Of a DNA stretch of 64,000 nucleotides, positions 11,175 through 40,599 are shown piece by piece; the first letter of the stretch is position 1, and every line of letters starts with the position of its first letter. This DNA comes from Alpinimonas psychrophila. GTDB taxonomy: Bacteria > Actinomycetota > Actinomycetes > Actinomycetales > Microbacteriaceae. Location of the stretch: positions 62,001-126,000 of the forward strand of contig NZ_JACGWU010000005.1 in assembly GCF_014137865.1 (NCBI RefSeq), written 5' to 3'. Below the pieces are notes generated by a model, which searched no databases, was not told the DNA's origin, and was given only the letters and a program-made list of their open reading frames with translations. The position numbers were made by a program, and so were the translations under genes.

Positions 11175-11591
11175 CTACGCCCACGGATCGATGAGATCAA
11201 GGCCGAGTCCCTCGAAATCGCTGGTGTTACGCGTGGCCAATGATGCACCCTGGGCGAGGCAAACCGCTGCGATCTGGCTGTCCGCAAAACTGAGAGTTCT
11301 TCCACGCCTTTGTTGCTCCGCAACAAGTTCCCCCCACTCGTAGGCAGCCAGGCGGTCGAAGGGCACCACGAACTGAGCAAAGTCTTCCAGGATTACGTCC
11401 ATGACGGATGCCGTCAGGTCCATTTTGCGCTGTCCGTCTGGAAGAATCGCCACGCCTCGAACGAGCTCCCCGACGATTGTGGCTGTCAGGAAAAGGTCGC
11501 GTCCAACATGGCGGTCAAACCACAACACGAATTGAGGATGCTGGCTCTTGCGAGTGAGCTCAGACACGACATTTGTATCGATAATGATCAC
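11175..11591 (-). CDS. PIN-domain toxin (VapC/FitB-like)
   Basis: A 138-residue PIN ribonuclease. The first strand is MIIIDTNVVSEL (Asp5), followed by VGELVRG (Glu42), and the third acidic site is LSFADSQIAA around residue 103. A short terminal strand (ASLATRNTSDFEG) carries the last acidic position. All catalytic acids are present, so the toxin is probably functional. It is translated after the antitoxin with an ATGA overlap. By family it cleaves structured RNA such as tRNA; the target is unknown. Confidence 0.92.
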   Translation of the reverse strand: MIIIDTNVVSELTRKSQHPQFVLWFDRHVGRDLFLTATIVGELVRGVAILPDGQRKMDLTASVMDVILEDFAQFVVPFDRLAAYEWGELVAEQQRRGRTLSFADSQIAAVCLAQGASLATRNTSDFEGLGLDLIDPWA

Positions 11592-11869
11592 AAGGATGAT
11601 TCTGGCTCGCTGAAGTCCACCCCGCTGGCCAGTTCCGTTGATCTGGGGAAAACTAATTCCTCGGTGTCTATGTGAGCGAAACGAGCTCGCATGCGAGCGC
11701 CGAGCGAAGCGAGTGCCTCTTCAGACCGCGGAGAGTTTTCGGTTCGGAGAACTGCCGCCCCCAAAATAGCTCGAACTTCCGCCTCCATGGAGCGCCCGTT
11801 TCGCCTTGCCCGCTCCTTGAGACCCAGCTTCACTTCTTCTTCTAGATTTCTCACCACGATCGATGTCAT
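11588..11869 (-). CDS. FitA/VapB-like ribbon-helix-helix antitoxin
   Basis: A 93-residue antitoxin. The N-terminal ribbon-helix-helix, TSIVVRNLEEEVKLGLKER followed by ARRNGRSMEAEVRAIL, is the FitA/Arc DNA-binding pattern. The C-terminal part (EELVFPRSTELASGVDF) is the likely toxin-wrapping tail. A perfect 18-bp palindrome lies 39 bp upstream of the start, fitting autoregulation. It forms an operon with the PIN toxin (4-nt overlap). Confidence 0.92.
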   Translation of the reverse strand: MTSIVVRNLEEEVKLGLKERARRNGRSMEAEVRAILGAAVLRTENSPRSEEALASLGARMRARFAHIDTEELVFPRSTELASGVDFSEPESSL

Positions 11870-11907: not shown

Positions 11908-11925
11908 CAAAATGATATCATTTTG
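11908..11925. promoter_or_regulatory. 18-bp perfect palindrome, putative antitoxin operator
   Basis: CAAAATGATATCATTTTG reads identically on both strands and sits just upstream of the antitoxin start in an otherwise less A+T-rich area. Ribbon-helix-helix antitoxins bind such palindromes; binding here is inference. Confidence 0.75.
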
Positions 11926-12202: not shown

Positions 12203-13645
12203 ATGAATACCAGCATTGTGTGGCTCCGCGACGACCTGCGTGTTTCTGATAACCCCGCCCTCCTCGCGGGGGCTGAGACATCCGACAATCTCGTCGTCGT
12301 TTATGTTCTTGACCAGGAGAGCCCCGGCATCCGCCCCCTGGGTGGCGCGACAAAGTGGTGGCTGCATCACAGCCTCGAAGCCCTCGCCGACAAACTCCAG
12401 CGGCTTGGCGGCCGCCTTATCCTGCGCCACGGCCCGGCCCACGACGTCCTCCGCGAGCTGATCGCCGAGACGAGTGCTCACGCCATCTTCTGGAACCGTC
12501 GCTACGGCGGTGCCGAGCGTGAACTGGATGCCACCATCAAGAGTTTTGCCCGCGCATCCGGGCTGAAAGCACAAAGTTTTCAGGCGAGCGTTCTCTTTGA
12601 ACCCTGGACCGTGCGCACCGGAGGTGGCACTCCCTATACGGTCTTCACGCCGTTTTGGAAGTCCTGCATTAATAACCATGACATTCCCCGGATGCCGTTA
12701 GACGCACCGCCGGTCCTTCCGCATTCACCCCTCATCACGCGAGCTCACGGCGGCCAAGAGGCCGAACCACTCGCCAGTGACGACCTTGCCTCGTGGCACC
12801 TGTTGCCCACTGCCCCGGACTGGTCTGCGGGACTCGCCCATCGTTGGACTATCGGCGAAAACGCCGCGCACGAGCGCCTCGAGGACTTCATCGACACGCG
12901 CCTCCCCCAATACGCCGACGGCCGCGATGCCCCCGCACGTTTGGTGACCAGCGAACTCTCGCCCCACTTGCGTTTTGGCGAAATTAGTCCTTTTCAGGTG
13001 TGGCACCGAGTCGAAGCAGCCAAGGCGCATGGGGATGCCGTCGTGCTCAAGAATGCGATTAAATTCATGGCAGAGGTCGGATGGCGTGAGTTCAGCTACC
13101 ACCTGCTGTATCACTGGCCCGATCTTGCCACGGTGAACTTTGACTCTCGGTTTGATGCTTTTCCGTGGGGAGAGGCCAACCCCGAAGCACTCGCAGCCTG
13201 GCAGCAGGGCCGCACAGGGATTCCTCTGGTCGACGCCGGCATGCGCGAGCTCTGGCAAAGCGGCACCATGCACAACCGCGTTCGCATGGTCGCCGCGTCG
13301 TTCCTCATCAAGAACTTGCTCATCGACTGGCGCGTGGGCGAACAGTGGTTTTGGGATACCCTGGTCGACGCTGATCCGGCGAGCAACGCCGCGAGTTGGC
13401 AGTGGGTTGCCGGCAGTGGGGCGGATGCGGCACCGTACTTTCGAGTCTTCAACCCTGTACTGCAGGCCGATAAATTCGACCCGCAGCACGAGTACCTCCA
13501 CCGCTACTTAGGCGAGTATGAGCATCCGCTGGTCAGCGACTACCCGTTGCCCATCATCGACCTTGTCGAATCACGAAACCGGGCGTTGGCGGCCTTTGCG
13601 CAGCTGCAAGGCATCCCGCGCGCCATCAGGCCACCTTCGCCCTAG
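12203..13645 (+). CDS. phr: Deoxyribodipyrimidine photolyase (class I)
   Basis: A 480-residue blue-light DNA-repair flavoprotein. The N-terminal photolyase domain opens SIVWLRDDLRVSDNPAL. The FAD-binding C-terminal domain contains TSELSPHLRFGEISPFQVWH, WREFSYHLLYHWPDL, TGIPLVDAGMRELWQSGTMH, NRVRMVAASFL and WQWVAGSGADAAPYFRVFNP, the standard CPD photolyase blocks. The length is typical. A strong hairpin precedes the gene and AGTAGGGA serves as ribosome-binding site. Confidence 0.96.
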   Translation: MNTSIVWLRDDLRVSDNPALLAGAETSDNLVVVYVLDQESPGIRPLGGATKWWLHHSLEALADKLQRLGGRLILRHGPAHDVLRELIAETSAHAIFWNRRYGGAERELDATIKSFARASGLKAQSFQASVLFEPWTVRTGGGTPYTVFTPFWKSCINNHDIPRMPLDAPPVLPHSPLITRAHGGQEAEPLASDDLASWHLLPTAPDWSAGLAHRWTIGENAAHERLEDFIDTRLPQYADGRDAPARLVTSELSPHLRFGEISPFQVWHRVEAAKAHGDAVVLKNAIKFMAEVGWREFSYHLLYHWPDLATVNFDSRFDAFPWGEANPEALAAWQQGRTGIPLVDAGMRELWQSGTMHNRVRMVAASFLIKNLLIDWRVGEQWFWDTLVDADPASNAASWQWVAGSGADAAPYFRVFNPVLQADKFDPQHEYLHRYLGEYEHPLVSDYPLPIIDLVESRNRALAAFAQLQGIPRAIRPPSP

Positions 13646-13652
13646 CGAGAAA

Positions 13653-14015
13653 CTACTGAACGATGGCGAGACCTGTGGCGCTGGATGCCGCGGCGACACT
13701 TCCGGCATTGACCATGTCGGTAAAGCCGAGGCTCTTCATTTGCGTGATGGCTTGGCCGGCACGATTACCCGACTTGCAATAGACAACGTAGGTTCCCGCT
13801 GTCGGAAGCTTCGAGACCGTAGCCGCGAAGGTCGTCGACTCCACGTCAATGTTCACGGCACCCTCCAAGTGGCCTCCGGCGAATTCGGCGGGCGTGCGTA
13901 CGTCAATGATGACAGTGCCCTGACTCACAACGATGGGGGCAGCGGCGGGGGCACACGCGGTCAGAACAAAAACGGTGGCGAGGGCAAGGGCGGCGAAAGC
14001 AAAAATCTTCTTCAT
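13653..14015 (-). CDS. Rhodanese-domain lipoprotein
   Basis: A 120-residue secreted lipoprotein. The signal peptide MKKIFAFAALALATVFVLTAC has lipobox LTAC (Cys21). The rhodanese domain runs from VIIDVRTPAEFAGGHLEGAV to the active loop VVYCKSGNRAGQAI, with the catalytic Cys in YCKSGNRA. It would handle persulfide or sulfane sulfur at the outer face of the membrane. The start at 14015 is chosen for its signal peptide. A perfect 30-bp palindrome lies 10 bp upstream of the start. Confidence 0.9.
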   Translation of the reverse strand: MKKIFAFAALALATVFVLTACAPAAAPIVVSQGTVIIDVRTPAEFAGGHLEGAVNIDVESTTFAATVSKLPTAGTYVVYCKSGNRAGQAITQMKSLGFTDMVNAGSVAAASSATGLAIVQ

Positions 14016-14024
14016 GCGCTCACT

Positions 14025-14054
14025 GTAGCAGATACCCCATGGGGTATCTGCTAC
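14025..14054. promoter_or_regulatory. 30-bp perfect palindrome, CsoR/CstR-type operator candidate
   Basis: Each 15-base half is GTAGCAGATACCCCA and its exact complement; the core ATACCCCATGGGGTAT resembles operators of the CsoR/RcnR/CstR family (copper or persulfide sensors). It lies immediately upstream of the rhodanese lipoprotein gene, consistent with persulfide-responsive repression. No CsoR-like gene is in the window, so a trans-acting factor would be elsewhere. Confidence 0.65.
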
Positions 14055-14062
14055 CCGCAAAG

Positions 14063-14908
14063 CTACGCCTCGCGCGTGATCTCCACCCGAACAAAGACTC
14101 CCGAAGCACTCGCCCCCGCGTACACGCCGCGCAACGGCGAAACGTCACGATAATCGCGACCATGCGCAATGAGAACATGGCGTTCGCCAATGGCAATCAT
14201 GTTAGTCGGGTCATAGCCAAACCAGTCGCCGGTGAACCACTCTACCCACGCGTGCGACTCCCCCACGATGGTTTCCCCCAACGGGGCATCGGGCCGGGGA
14301 TGAAGGTAACCCGAAACGTAGCGCGCCGGGATGCCGACGGACCGCAGAGCACCGAGTGTCACGTGGGCAATATCTTGACACACCCCCTGACCGGCCTCCC
14401 ACGCATCGGCGCCGGTGGAATGAACCCCCGTGACGCCCTGCATGTAGGTGATGTGCTCGTGCACCGCTTGACAGACGGCCATGGCGGTTTCGGCCGGGGA
14501 GAGCCCTCTGCCCACAATCGATTCGGCGAGCGCCACAACCTCGACCGGCGGCTCCGTCATCCGCGTGTGATGCAAAAACTCCACAAACTGGGTTGTCGTT
14601 TGCGCCGTGTTGGTGAGCTGATCCCAAGAAATATCCGGGGTTTCCCGCACCACGGGGCGCACCTCAACCACGCTCGTGGCCGTCACCGATAACTCGGTGT
14701 GCGGGGTGAGCACTTCGAACGTGGAGACCCGCGTTCCCCAATAATCGACATAACTGTTTTGGGTCGCCGACGGCAAAATGTCGAGGGTGGCGGAGAAGAC
14801 AAACTGGTCGCCGCCCGAAAAGGGAAGCATGCGTGCTTCGTTGTAGGACGCCGTAGCCGGGCTCTTGTAGGAGAACCCCGTGCGGTGCACAATGCGCAAG
14901 CGGCTCAT
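14063..14908 (-). CDS. Transglutaminase-like protein (ATP-grasp/alpha-E cluster)
   Basis: A 281-residue protein. The N-terminal beta domain (residues ~1-90, IVHRTGFSYKSPATASYNEA) is the bacterial transglutaminase N domain. The core has catalytic Cys in GQGVCQDIAHV, His in GESHAWVEWF and Asp in FGYDPTN. In this conserved three-gene cluster it accompanies a circularly permuted ATP-grasp and an alpha-E protein, a set proposed to make and process a peptide or amide-linked product; the product is unknown. It overlaps the upstream alpha-E gene by 4 nt. Confidence 0.92.
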   Translation of the reverse strand: MSRLRIVHRTGFSYKSPATASYNEARMLPFSGGDQFVFSATLDILPSATQNSYVDYWGTRVSTFEVLTPHTELSVTATSVVEVRPVVRETPDISWDQLTNTAQTTTQFVEFLHHTRMTEPPVEVVALAESIVGRGLSPAETAMAVCQAVHEHITYMQGVTGVHSTGADAWEAGQGVCQDIAHVTLGALRSVGIPARYVSGYLHPRPDAPLGETIVGESHAWVEWFTGDWFGYDPTNMIAIGERHVLIAHGRDYRDVSPLRGVYAGASASGVFVRVEITREA

Positions 14909-15834
14909 GAGTTCTCCCCGATCCAGACGGGGACAGCGCTGGTGGGAAAATACCGTAACCGAATAGCGTCGCTCGCGGCACTGGTGACCGACTGCACATT
15001 TTCCATATGGCCGGGTAGGTCATCCATCAGTTCAATGATCGGGCGGTATTCCAATTCGCTGCGAATCTGGCCCAGCAGGCGCTGCGCGTGATCGGCAACG
15101 CCGGCACGGCCGCTGCGGGGATCAATGTCCCGCAGGCAGTCTTCCGCCCGCTTCACGGAGGCGAGAATCGACCGTGGAAACAGGCGATCGGTAAGCAAGA
15201 ACTCGGCTGCGTTACGTGCCGAAGGGACCCCCCGGTAGGTGCGCAGATACGCTTCAAAAGCCCCACAGCTGCGCAGAATAGTGGTCCACGAGGGACCGCT
15301 GGCGTCTGTGAGCTGACGGGTTGCCAACAATCGGGCCGTCATGTCGGCGCGTTCGATGGCCCGACCGAGCGAGAAAAACTGCCATGCTTCATCGTGGCTC
15401 GTCCCCGAATCGACGATGCCAATAGACAGTGCCGCCCGCTCCCGCACCCACCGAAAGAACTCGTGGGTCTTGTCGATTCCGACTTTCTTGGGCATGCGCG
15501 CATTGTTGGAGTTCAGACACTCCCACAGCTCGGTGGAAATAATTTCGCGAGCCCGCCGAGCATTCTCGCGTGCGGCATCCACGGCGTAGGCAATGGAAGC
15601 GGGGTGGGTGCGGTCAATGGCCAGAATGGCAATAACGTCTTCGCGCGTCACCAGCTGATTTTCGGGCATGTCGGTCCCCATGACCGACAAGAGCGATCGG
15701 CAGGCCGTATCTTCGTCAATCCACGGGTCCTCGAGCAGCAACTGAAGGTGAACATCCAGGATGCGCGACGTCCCGTCGCTGCGCTCAACATAGCGACCGA
15801 TCCAGAAAAGTGACTCGGCAATTCTGCTCAGCAT
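14905..15834 (-). CDS. Alpha-E domain protein
   Basis: A 309-residue all-helical protein starting MLSRIAESLFWIGRYVERSD, the hallmark of the alpha-E family. Further family blocks are FFSLGRAIERADMTARLL and the helical C-terminal bundle. No catalytic residues are known. It is almost always encoded with the permuted ATP-grasp and transglutaminase genes, as here, with short overlaps on both sides (translational coupling). Confidence 0.92.
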   Translation of the reverse strand: MLSRIAESLFWIGRYVERSDGTSRILDVHLQLLLEDPWIDEDTACRSLLSVMGTDMPENQLVTREDVIAILAIDRTHPASIAYAVDAARENARRAREIISTELWECLNSNNARMPKKVGIDKTHEFFRWVRERAALSIGIVDSGTSHDEAWQFFSLGRAIERADMTARLLATRQLTDASGPSWTTILRSCGAFEAYLRTYRGVPSARNAAEFLLTDRLFPRSILASVKRAEDCLRDIDPRSGRAGVADHAQRLLGQIRSELEYRPIIELMDDLPGHMENVQSVTSAASDAIRLRYFPTSAVPVWIGENS

Positions 15835-17558
15835 TGTGAATCCCTTCGTGCCAGGAGTTGCTGTTGCTGTTGCTCCTGTTGCTGCATGCGCTTGCCCGCG
15901 TCGCCATCGCGAGGAGAGGATTCCGGCATGTTCCGAATTTGGTGGACCACGCCGGTTGCGGGAGACAGCTCCTCTTCGATGGCCAACTGTTCGGCTTCGG
16001 CCTCATCGATGGCTGCTTGCTCCACTGTTGCCTGATCGATGACAATTGTGGCAACGCCCCGAGATCCGGCCGAACGTCGGTCGCGATCCTTGTGCCCCAA
16101 AACCCAGGTGTCTTTCGAACCGCCGCCCTGGCTGGAGTTCACAACCAGCTCCCCCTCGGGAAGGGCAACGCGGGTGAGGCCGCCCGGTAAAACGTAGACG
16201 TCGTCGCCGCTGTTCACAGCGAAGGGCCGCAGGTCGGCGTGCCGCGGACGCATGCCTTCCTCCACCAACGTGGGGATCGTGGAGAGCTGAACAAGCGGTT
16301 GGGCGATCCACCCGCGCGGGTCGTCAATGAGCCGCTGGCGAAGGGCATCCAGTTCCTCTTTTGAGGCGTCCGGGCCCACAACGAGACCCTTACCACCAGA
16401 GCCGTCAACGGGTTTGATCACCAGTTCGTCGAGGCGATCAAGCACCTCTTCCAGTGCCTCCGGTTCTTCGAGGCGCCAGGTATCGACGTTCGGCAGAATC
16501 GGTTTCTCGCCCAGGTAATACTCAATGAGCGCAGGCAAGTACGTGTAGACAAGTTTGTCATCGGCGACACCGTTACCCACCGCATTAGCGATGGTGACGT
16601 GGCCGAGGCGTGCCGCGAGCAACATCCCGGGCGAACCTAAAACAGAGTCGGGGCGAAATTGCAGTGGGTCGAGAAACTCGTCATCGACGCGGCGATAGAT
16701 AACGTCGACGCGGGTAGGACCGGCGGTGGTGCGCATCCAGACACGCCCCCCGGAGCAAAAGAGGTCTCGGCCCTCGACGAGTTCGACGCCCATCAAGCGA
16801 GCCAGCAGGGTGTGCTCAAAGTAGGCAGAGTTGTAGACCCCGGGAGTGAGCACCACGACCGTGGGATCATCCACACCATCGGGGGCGGAGGCACGCAAGG
16901 CATTGAGCAAACGGTACGGGTAGTCGCCCACCGGGCGCACACTCATCGAAACAAAAAGTTCGGGCAACGTCTGTGCCATGACGCGACGGTTGGAGATGAC
17001 GTAACTGACACCGCTGGGCACACGCACGTTGTCTTCAAGAACTCGCCAGGCTCCTTTCTCATCACGGATGAGATCGATACCTGCCACGTGAATACGAACG
17101 CCATTTGCGCTGACAATCCCGGCCGCTTGACGGTGAAAGTGCTTGGATGTACTGATGAGTGCGGCAGGAATGACACCGTCGCGGACTGCGAGCTGGGGGC
17201 CATACACATCGGCAAGAAATCGTTCGAGGGCCTTGACCCGCTGGGTCACGCCCTTCTCGACATTTGCCCAATCATCCGCTTCGATGACACGGGGAACAGC
17301 ATCGAGCGGAAAGGGGCGTTCTTCGCCGGCAAAATCAAAGGTCACACCCTGTGCAAGGTAGCTACTGGCGAGGGCTTCCGTGCGGCCGCGCAACTCCTCC
17401 TGCGACATCTGTGCGAGTGCGCCATAAATGTCTTTATAGGAGCCGCGGGGGGAGGAAAAATCAGCAAAAGACGGAAACATCTCGTCCCACGGAGGCGTTC
17501 CCTTGCGTGAGCGAGGAGTCTCGTGGGCGGTGCCATAACCGTCGAACAGGGTTGCCAT
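15828..17558 (-). CDS. Circularly permuted ATP-grasp protein (type 2)
   Basis: A 576-residue ATP-dependent ligase-like protein. It contains HFHRQAAGI, VLEDNVRVPSGVSYVISNR, VVLTPGVYNSAYFEHTLLA, the ATP-grasp lysine strand ELVIKPVDGSGGKGLVVGP and the C-terminal metal-site region FAVNSGDDVYVLPGGLTRV. The family is predicted to form amide bonds. ATG 17558 (AGGATGG upstream) is favoured over an upstream start at 17636. The C-terminal ~60 residues are an acidic tail ending in a Gln-rich run (QQQEQQQQQ), unusual for the family. It is first gene of the three-gene operon. Confidence 0.92.
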   Translation of the reverse strand: MATLFDGYGTAHETPRSRKGTPPWDEMFPSFADFSSPRGSYKDIYGALAQMSQEELRGRTEALASSYLAQGVTFDFAGEERPFPLDAVPRVIEADDWANVEKGVTQRVKALERFLADVYGPQLAVRDGVIPAALISTSKHFHRQAAGIVSANGVRIHVAGIDLIRDEKGAWRVLEDNVRVPSGVSYVISNRRVMAQTLPELFVSMSVRPVGDYPYRLLNALRASAPDGVDDPTVVVLTPGVYNSAYFEHTLLARLMGVELVEGRDLFCSGGRVWMRTTAGPTRVDVIYRRVDDEFLDPLQFRPDSVLGSPGMLLAARLGHVTIANAVGNGVADDKLVYTYLPALIEYYLGEKPILPNVDTWRLEEPEALEEVLDRLDELVIKPVDGSGGKGLVVGPDASKEELDALRQRLIDDPRGWIAQPLVQLSTIPTLVEEGMRPRHADLRPFAVNSGDDVYVLPGGLTRVALPEGELVVNSSQGGGSKDTWVLGHKDRDRRSAGSRGVATIVIDQATVEQAAIDEAEAEQLAIEEELSPATGVVHQIRNMPESSPRDGDAGKRMQQQEQQQQQLLARRDSQC

Positions 17559-17745
17559 GTTGCCATCCTGCCTGTGAGGGATTACGCGAATGTTACCGAT
17601 GTATCCCGCCGCATCGCCCTGAGCGAAATATAACAATTACAGCGTACTTTCTCTTGTGCCGAGCAAATAACTCGGTCGATGTGAACTCATCGCGATAAGG
17701 AAGCGTAAGAAAGTTGTGAGGTTCTCCCAGATTGCTGTTTGGAAA

Positions 17746-38922: not shown

Positions 38923-40599
38923 ATGAGAAAACTTTCAACGTTCGAGCGGCCCTTCAGCGATTACCATCTCGAAATCGTTTCGGCGCGTTCTATTTACACT
39001 GTTGACGCGAATGACACCGTCGTGACCGCGATTTTAATTGCTGCAGGGCAGATTGTTGCCTCCGGAACAATAAGCGAGTGCCGCACTGCTGCTTCAAAAT
39101 TATCGACTCAATCACCCACCGAGACCGACTTCGGTCACAACATAATTGTTCCAGGATTCATCGATGCACACGCGCATCCATTGATGTTGGGACAAATGAT
39201 GAGCTGGGTTGATTGTGGACCAGATAAGGCCAAAAACATTCCGGAGATTATTTCTCTTTTGAAAGCTGCAGCAGTTAGCGTTCCCGACGGGCATCCCATC
39301 CGTGGCTATGGATATGAACAGCGGAATCTCGATGAGAAACGACACCCGCACAAAAGCGAGCTCGACGAGGTGGCCTCAAATAGGGAGGTATATCTCATGA
39401 ATGCCTCGGGCCATGGTGGAGTCGTGAATAGCTACACTTTTGACCTTTACGGAGTGACTAAGGAAACTCCCAATCCTCAAAGCGGTGAGTTCTTTCGAGA
39501 TAACCAAGGGGAACTAACGGGTGAACTTTCTGATGCTGCGTGCAATATTCTGACAGGCCTTAACGGAGTCAAAATTGGTCACCACGGCCCGAACTTTCAT
39601 CTCAGCGACGCCCCGGCCGAGCACGTGCGTCAACTCGCTGTTGCGCAAGAAAATTTTCTTGCGGGGGGGGTTACGGCCATTGGGGACGCGCAGGTTTCCA
39701 AACGCGAATTTGACACTTATCTTCGCCTTGCCGAGCAAAAAGGCCTCAAGACACGAGTTTCAATGTACTTACTTTCACACCTCCTTGATGACGCCATTGA
39801 CTCCGGAATGCATGGGGCTTTCGGGAACTCCTTCCTCAGCTTTGCAGGCATCAAGTTCTACGCAGATGGAACGCTTGGCGGTTGGACAGCCTATTTCCCA
39901 GACGGCTATCTAGGGGATCCTTGCAGAACTGGACAGCTTTACCATGAACCAGAAGAATACAAGCGACTAATCTCTCGCGCCCATGCTGTCGGATTGCAAA
40001 CAGCAACGCACGCACAATCACCCACAGCCATTGAAATGGTCATCGTCGCAATTGAAGATGCCTTGGCAGAAAGTCCTTCCACTGATTCGCGCCACCGAAT
40101 CGAACATTGCGGCCTTCCGACTCCTGAACAGATAGCAAGAATGGCAAAAGCAGGGATTCGTCCTGTTAGCCAGCCCCAGCATCATTACAACTGGGGCGAA
40201 GGAGTTGAACAGGCCATTGGAACTCCCGGAGAAAGATTCAACCCTCTCGGCGAATTCGCACGTGGAGGCGTGAGCATCACCATCAGTTCAGACGCCCCAG
40301 TCGCAAATCCACGCCCTCTTGAAGCAATCAGAGCAGCAATTAGTCGCATAACCAGGCGTGGCAGCCAACTTGGTGAAGAGACTTTGGCAATATCGCGCGT
40401 CCAGGCTCTTCGCGCCCATACAATCAACGCGGCTTTCACGCTCGGGCGTGAGTCAGATTTGGGCAGTCTGGAAATAGGAAAGCGTGCAGATTTTGCTGTC
40501 CTTGATGCAGATCTTTTTGAAATTGATCTTGAAGAGATTGCCCACATAAAGGTTGTTCAAACTTGGGTGGATGGCTGTAGCCGCTACTCGTCAGAATAA
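38923..40599 (+). CDS. Amidohydrolase (YtcJ-type)
   Basis: A 558-residue metal-dependent hydrolase. The N-terminal beta cap (EIVSARSIYTVDANDTVVTA) leads to GFIDAHAHPLMLGQM with metal His83 and His85. Further blocks are GIKFYADGTLGGWTAYF, AVGLQTATHAQSP (His), HRIEHCGLP (His), ISSDAPV (Asp) and LGSLEIGKRADFAVLD. The YtcJ group hydrolyses amide or formamide bonds. A run of eight G lies at 39663-39670 in frame. It is part of the same operon (18-bp gap upstream). Confidence 0.92.
   Translation: MRKLSTFERPFSDYHLEIVSARSIYTVDANDTVVTAILIAAGQIVASGTISECRTAASKLSTQSPTETDFGHNIIVPGFIDAHAHPLMLGQMMSWVDCGPDKAKNIPEIISLLKAAAVSVPDGHPIRGYGYEQRNLDEKRHPHKSELDEVASNREVYLMNASGHGGVVNSYTFDLYGVTKETPNPQSGEFFRDNQGELTGELSDAACNILTGLNGVKIGHHGPNFHLSDAPAEHVRQLAVAQENFLAGGVTAIGDAQVSKREFDTYLRLAEQKGLKTRVSMYLLSHLLDDAIDSGMHGAFGNSFLSFAGIKFYADGTLGGWTAYFPDGYLGDPCRTGQLYHEPEEYKRLISRAHAVGLQTATHAQSPTAIEMVIVAIEDALAESPSTDSRHRIEHCGLPTPEQIARMAKAGIRPVSQPQHHYNWGEGVEQAIGTPGERFNPLGEFARGGVSITISSDAPVANPRPLEAIRAAISRITRRGSQLGEETLAISRVQALRAHTINAAFTLGRESDLGSLEIGKRADFAVLDADLFEIDLEEIAHIKVVQTWVDGCSRYSSE

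Follow-up and report, generated by a model that had tools for sequence, protein, structure and literature searches.

A palindrome before a lipoprotein rhodanese gene of Alpinimonas psychrophila contains the predicted operator of a CstR-like persulfide-sensing repressor

In Alpinimonas psychrophila, the start codon of a gene encoding a putative surface rhodanese is preceded by a long and perfect palindrome. The question raised by this locus is whether the palindrome is a protein binding site and, if so, for which regulator. The locus is part of a stretch of 64,000 nucleotides on contig C5 (hereafter the window) and comprises the following features.

14025..14054, no strand: 30-bp perfect palindrome GTAGCAGATACCCCATGGGGTATCTGCTAC, composed of a 16-bp core and non-conserved symmetric 7-bp arms.
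14032..14047, no strand: operator core ATACCCCATGGGGTAT (TAC-N8-GTA), predicted site of a CstR-like repressor, matching the published ScCsoR operator ATACC-n6-GGTAT.
14022..14030, minus strand: putative extended −10 element TGCTACAGT, 6 nt from the ATG and overlapping one palindrome arm.
13653..14015, minus strand: predicted lipoprotein rhodanese of 120 aa (PF00581, E 2.1e-14), with lipobox LTAC and catalytic loop CKSGNR.
14063..14908, minus strand: transglutaminase-like gene (PF08379/PF01841), upstream and co-directional, ending 8 nt before the palindrome.

As claimed in a sequence-only reading of this DNA, the palindrome is perfect over 30 bp. Its arms (14025-14039 and 14040-14054) pair over 15 + 15 nt with 100% complementarity, without spacer or mismatch, and no longer zero-gap palindrome is present in the 64-kb window, the runners-up measuring 20 and 18 bp. 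No palindrome above 22 bp arose in any of 100 simulated 64-kb sequences (first-order Markov), and the 30-bp palindrome is confirmed as real and far above chance. Elsewhere in the window, a 20-bp perfect palindrome, CGCAAGAAAATTTTCTTGCG, is located at 39644-39663, and an 18-bp perfect palindrome (11908-11925) is found just upstream of genes for a PIN-domain protein and a FitA-like ribbon-helix-helix partner (11175-11869, minus strand), a type II toxin-antitoxin-like pair of which it could be the operator.

The 30-bp palindrome takes up most of the 47-nt minus-strand gap between the transglutaminase-like gene and the start of the rhodanese gene at 14015, at a distance of 9 nt from the ATG (14013-14015). 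Together with the PF00581 match and the lipobox motif, this distance agrees with the earlier description of an element abutting the start of a surface rhodanese gene. The protein has one Rhodanese domain with a loop of the form CxxGxR, and rhodanese activity is predicted. Its N-terminus is hydrophobic, MKKIFAFAALALATVFVLTAC, and carries the lipobox-like LTAC; by signal peptide and lipobox motif alone, the protein is predicted to be a bacterial lipoprotein. An alignment of 27 sequences, made up of the window protein and those of 26 of 29 other loci (all but L050, L052, and L054), shows no variation at C21 (the lipobox Cys), C80, G83, and R85. The best PDB match is the larger 3tp9, followed by 2jtq (PspE; E 1.2e-08), and the window protein scores under both PspE model cut-offs. 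Its best named relatives are mostly from Microbacteriaceae, along with other actinobacteria. On the far side of the palindrome, transglutaminase-like, Alpha-E, and circularly permuted ATP-grasp genes lie in a row (14063-17636, minus strand; Pfam). These three form a common gene trio, and we regard the transglutaminase-like gene as context, outside the regulon discussed below.

At 14032-14047, the palindrome contains an exact match to the 16-bp ATACC-n6-GGTAT, an operator definition taken from work on the S. coelicolor sulfane-sulfur sensor ScCsoR, which is reported to bind this sequence (PMC7533328). Within the window, ATACCCCATGGGGTAT was found once at up to 3 mismatches (shuffle mean 0.04). 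While the perfect symmetry of the proposed 30-bp unit stands, comparison of orthologues revealed that only the inner ~16 bp is kept and that the outer 7-bp arms are not, and the more fitting description is that of a 16-bp operator whose flanks are specific to a lineage. A search of the genome contigs for the exact 24-bp core plus arms yielded 0 matches. A run of at least 6 symmetric flanking pairs was present at 3 of 74 distinct 16-bp sites examined, namely at the one in the window and at L223 and L224, both from relative G030. By our own arithmetic, about 0.02 such sites would be expected at one quarter per pair, so arm extension may have been selected in a few lineages. The long symmetric arms of the G030 sites (L223:1190-1219 and L224:1242-1269) are unlike those of the window in sequence, and both are possible dual operator/hairpin elements.

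When the complete genome was scanned with the 16-bp pattern ATACCCCNNGGGGTAT, allowing at most one mismatch, five places were found; the reversed control gave 0.

Site 1, contig C5, window 14032-14047: before the lipoprotein rhodanese gene.
Site 2, C1:789419: ATACCCCCTGGGGTAT, in the promoter of the CDR-rhodanese-CstR operon.
Site 3, C1:154646: before the gene for a small Cys-rich protein of 56 aa (L023:4695-4865).
Site 4, C9:51434: before the gene for a small Cys-rich protein of 38 aa (L022:4510-4626).
Site 5, C12:12183: before a thioredoxin gene (PF00085).

The genes behind all five sites are of sulfur or thiol type, and the window rhodanese has its site in common with the promoter of the CstR-like regulator's own operon. 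The recurrence of the core that the sequence-only reading had suggested looking for is thus observed at sulfur loci, including that operon. Taken together, the five sites very probably outline the sulfur-stress regulon of the CstR-like repressor, with binding predicted from the shared sequence. Since a looser 14-bp pattern with 2 mismatches showed no enrichment (65 forward against 122 reversed-control matches), only the 16-bp pattern with at most one mismatch was used.

The two small proteins behind sites 3 and 4 share the family motif MC..V.C.KCGK.[TS]W.GCGQH. No accepted match to this family was obtained in Pfam or NCBIfam, and a literal literature search for the peptide GKTTWAGCG returned no paper. 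Matches occur in 90 of the 199 genomes of the bacterial family, and 13 positions, 5 of them Cys, are invariant in 25 chosen sequences. In some relatives, the gene for the small Cys-rich protein adjoins the CstR gene or is located directly downstream of that for the lipoprotein rhodanese. The proteins may be zinc knuckles or sulfur carriers.

The genome (2.24 Mb, 12 contigs) encodes three PF02583 (CsoR-family) proteins; the family is therefore represented, as the sequence-only reading had wanted checked. Two of the genes are part of one copper cluster with genes for two copper-type P-type ATPases (CopA). Both regulators of this cluster resemble RicR (E 2.3e-40 and 3e-39, below the model cut-off) and carry Cys-His-Cys at the aligned positions. 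The third regulator (C1:787117-787395; DUF156/CsoR-family domain, PF02583 E 2e-21) is the last of an operon that starts with a CoA-disulfide-reductase-like protein with a C-terminal rhodanese domain, followed by a single rhodanese. Its location on C1, with the window on C5, fits the idea of a sensor encoded elsewhere, although 16 of 44 orthologous regions include a CstR-like gene in divergent orientation no more than 300 bp away. Because it has two Cys, Ala where the copper paralogues carry His (Cys, Ala, Cys), and 7mq3 and 7mq1 as best solved relatives, this regulator is CstR-like, and a response to persulfide is predicted. At the scored His position, which we take to be a copper ligand, His is absent from 63 of 63 CstR-class and present in 13 of 13 copper-class homologues, where 76 of 80 distinct homologues were scorable and the CstR class was assigned by best match. 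Three of the four unscored homologues read Cys-Cys without His by eye and one is a fragment.

Conservation was evaluated at orthologous rhodanese genes. Matches at E ≤ 1e-10 were obtained at 46 places in 43 of the 199 family genomes, and 44 of the 46 regions were examined, leaving out a second copy in G010 and G179 (weak match, 515-aa frame). A 16-bp site is present within 150 bp upstream of the rhodanese gene in 25 of the 44 regions. Any upstream 16-bp site within the examined region was found in 40 and a CstR-like gene in 30 of the 44, two counts that are favored in larger regions, as the regions were unequal and larger where a CstR gene had previously been seen nearby; the 150-bp figure is unaffected. 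Of these 30 regions, 16 have the CstR-like gene in divergent orientation within 300 bp, and in each of them a site lies between it and the rhodanese gene. Thirteen others have it divergent at a distance of 590-5273 bp; in these, the site belongs to a longer cluster, at the side of the CstR gene, and the cluster often includes thioredoxin and small Cys-rich genes. In the last region, the CstR-like gene immediately precedes the rhodanese gene on the same strand. Neither a site (at most one mismatch) nor a CstR gene was found in 4 of the 44 (G192, G112, G157, and G038); a two-mismatch site is present in G192. Reversed-pattern sites numbered 0 in the 158,230 bases of the 44 regions. A further 80 loci were fetched from named genomes, some of which were also in the family search. 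Here, with the actinobacterial split read off record titles, the 16-bp site occurs in 39 of 56 actinobacterial loci, 23 of the 56 having it within 260 bp upstream, and in 0 of 24 non-actinobacterial loci. Cultured carriers of the 16-bp site are Aurantimicrobium minutum (L281) and Cryobacterium fucosi (L288), among others. A 17-bp site was found at 1 and a reversed-pattern site at 0 of the 80.

A single further genome of the genus, G083 (87% complete), was searched, and it has no match to the lipoprotein rhodanese at E 1e-10. Three 16-bp sites are present in this genome.

G083, same contig as the CstR gene and about 2 kb from it (by eye): before a gene with a CDR start.
G083: before the gene for a homologue of the 56-aa Cys-rich protein.
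G083, L059:1501-1516: identical core ATACCCCATGGGGTAT, before the gene for a YgaP-like membrane protein (PF11127), a likely further member of the regulon.

In the genome's own copper cluster, the sites have one additional base (17 bp, TAC-N9-GTA; C1:426190 and C1:430534). The copper CsoR sites of S. lividans are reported to share TAC-X9-GTA (PMC3902906), a spacing (17-bp ATAC...GTAT) that was not found at the window site, which has N8. Scanning the own genome with the 17-bp pattern gave 8 matches against 5 in the control at 2 mismatches and 2 against 0 at 1 mismatch. Across 20 genomes, chosen among carriers of the lipoprotein rhodanese, there are 74 16-bp sites against 3 reversed ones and 42 17-bp sites against 0. 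Close sites were then grouped and the own genome was left out. Among the resulting 63 clusters of 16-bp sites in 19 relatives, 52 face sulfur-set genes, 0 copper-set genes, and 11 neither; the corresponding numbers for the 35 clusters of 17-bp sites, which come from 13 of the 19 relatives (6 had none), are 2, 19, and 14. Facing is defined by the start of a tblastn alignment within 400 bp, pointing away from the site, and not by mapped gene starts. With unclassified clusters left out, the contrast has a Fisher p of 1.3e-15, which is only indicative because, among other limits of the counts, related genomes are counted as independent. According to Pfam, 10 of the 11 unclassified 16-bp clusters have OsmC, SLAC1, CMD, a flavin oxidoreductase, a glycine transporter, and three multicopper oxidases as neighbors, two being without a family. 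With multicopper oxidase genes some 400 bp or less away from the three sites L189, L192, and L205, a length of 16 bp is no absolute mark of sulfur control; perhaps these exceptions to the spacing rule reflect cross-talk. The two 17-bp clusters facing sulfur-set genes (L243 and L247) do so at thioredoxin and CoA-disulfide reductase. Judged on site length, neighbor genes, and sensor residues, 16-bp sulfur sites are separable from 17-bp copper sites, with exceptions.

These data bear directly on the possibility that the core is a copper CsoR/RicR operator and the rhodanese part of a copper-stress response. The presence of two RicR-like copper repressors in the genome, the resemblance of the core to sites of copper regulation, among them those of copZA1 and copZA2 in S. 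lividans (PMC3902906), and the 3 of 63 16-bp clusters near multicopper oxidase genes are in line with it. We nevertheless consider it improbable, given that the copper-cluster sites of the genome itself have the 17-bp spacing published for S. lividans CsoR, that a CopA or copper-CsoR alignment start faces 0 of the 63 16-bp clusters of the 19 relatives within 400 bp, and that the regulator divergent from orthologous rhodanese genes is of the CstR type and not of the copper type. With spacing, neighbor genes, and sensor residues against it, copper control was rejected. Of the persulfide- or copper-sensing repressor invoked by the sequence-only reading, the persulfide part is supported by the data and the copper part is disfavored.

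A different view is that the palindrome functions mainly as an RNA hairpin, either as a terminator lacking a U-tract or as a stabilizer of the 3' end of the upstream transglutaminase operon. It begins 8 nt past the upstream stop codon, and an 81-nt RNA across it folds with a z of −4.83, a strong hairpin if transcribed from upstream; the long-armed L224 and L223 of one relative reach −4.72 and −2.89. However, a search of 13600-14300 for intrinsic terminators (GC-rich stem plus T run) found 0, and nothing in Rfam reached the gathering score. When five further orthologous stretches were folded, z ranged from +0.20 to −1.70, and three close orthologues keep only the 16-bp core, with unremarkable folds (z −0.64, −1.13, and −1.70). 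Moreover, the core is also found between divergent CstR/rhodanese pairs, where no same-direction upstream transcript runs in. A hairpin role cannot be the conserved function, and a palindrome serving mainly as RNA is unlikely; the terminator-only reading was set aside, and a hairpin was kept as a possible extra role in this lineage, in which it could add a 3'-end or insulating function for the upstream transcript. Palindromes are common operator shapes, which would also allow for an unrelated regulator, or for chance. Both are highly implausible, since this 16-bp word recurs at the orthologues of many genera and next to the CstR-like gene, and reversed controls amount to 0, or to 3 versus 74. 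Very probably, the core of the palindrome is the operator at which a CstR-like repressor that senses persulfide, and whose gene lies on another contig, would bind and control the lipoprotein rhodanese gene.

On the minus strand, GGGGTATCTGCTACAGT is followed by GAGCGC and then by the ATG, and TGnTAnnnT with the same 6-nt gap was likewise seen by eye in L029, L030, and L031. An extended −10 element only 6 nt from the ATG predicts a leaderless rhodanese mRNA, with the −10 box abutting the operator; a repressor on this site would then keep RNA polymerase off the promoter. Paired −35/−10 elements of the sigma-70 type were not found by consensus in 13600-14300. In several other relatives, the site is further from the start codon, and the promoter spacing of the window is therefore not general.

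From the site, the genes, the type of sensor, and their conservation, all read from sequence, a mechanism can be proposed in which binding, release by persulfide, promoter position, export, and enzyme substrate are predictions. The reduced CstR-like repressor would bind the 16-bp site beside the putative extended −10 element and block rhodanese transcription. When sulfane sulfur (persulfide or polysulfide) rises, the Cys of the repressor would be modified (persulfidated), the repressor would leave the DNA, and the rhodanese would be made. Such behavior is reported for ScCsoR, which is on DNA in its reduced form and is released on persulfidation (PMC7533328). The rhodanese would be exported and lipid-anchored outside the membrane, where it may move sulfane sulfur from thiosulfate or polysulfide to thiols. 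The same repressor would govern its own CoA-disulfide-reductase/rhodanese operon, the thioredoxin, and the two small Cys-rich proteins; inside the cell, thioredoxin, CoA-disulfide reductase, and the cytoplasmic rhodanese would reduce or pass on sulfane sulfur. E. coli PspE, a single-domain rhodanese reported to be periplasmic (PMC2593051) and to convert thiosulfate into cellular sulfane sulfur (PMC10215317), is on the latter account a fair model for the function of the window protein.

Operators of the CstR/ScCsoR type that control a rhodanese are already known. ScCsoR (SCO0620) is described as a DUF156 sulfane-sulfur sensor that needs both Cys and represses a rhodanese gene (PMC7533328). The system proposed here shares with it an actinobacterial two-Cys DUF156 repressor, 16-bp ATACC-n6-GGTAT operators, and a rhodanese among the targets. 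In S. coelicolor, however, the genes reported form a compact cluster with a persulfide dioxygenase and a TauE-like exporter (PMC7533328), whereas here the sites are dispersed and precede genes for a CoA-disulfide reductase/rhodanese fusion, thioredoxin, small Cys-rich proteins, and a lipid-anchored rhodanese. Likewise, S. aureus CstR (PMC5480029) and the solved relatives 7mq1-7mq3 are two-Cys CsoR paralogues with sulfur-transfer enzymes as targets, but a single operon is directly controlled in S. aureus, as its authors suggest (PMC5480029), compared with five candidate sites here. The S. lividans copper CsoR belongs to the same repressor superfamily and is reported to use TAC/GTA-flanked G-tract operators (PMC3902906); it differs in its TAC-X9-GTA spacing, against TAC-N8-GTA in the window, and the candidate sensor is without the His of the copper paralogues. 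PspE (PMC10215317, PMC2593051) resembles the window protein as a single-domain extracytoplasmic rhodanese, with 2jtq as second-best PDB match. The window protein differs in its lipobox, its predicted CstR-type operator, and scores under both PspE model cut-offs. By title or abstract start, no lipoprotein rhodanese under CsoR/CstR control stood out among the literature matches listed. As far as this literature goes, mostly titles and abstract starts, the lipid-anchored target and the scattered regulon are new, as are the small Cys-rich proteins and the family-wide test of the spacing contrast.

More tentatively, and with some doubt, we suggest that in Microbacteriaceae N8 versus N9 spacing separates the regulons of the persulfide sensor and its copper paralogues, and that the N8 set includes the small Cys-rich proteins (38-56 aa here) as sulfane-sulfur carriers that would act with the lipid-anchored rhodanese and thioredoxin on both sides of the membrane. 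Spacing would then provide a simple rule by which the operators of paralogous repressors could be assigned to persulfide or to copper. An isolated palindrome is thereby turned into a testable regulon, a single word leading to the sensor, a reductase, rhodaneses, a thioredoxin, and a small Cys-rich family. This regulon suggests that in these actinobacteria sulfane sulfur is managed outside the membrane as well.
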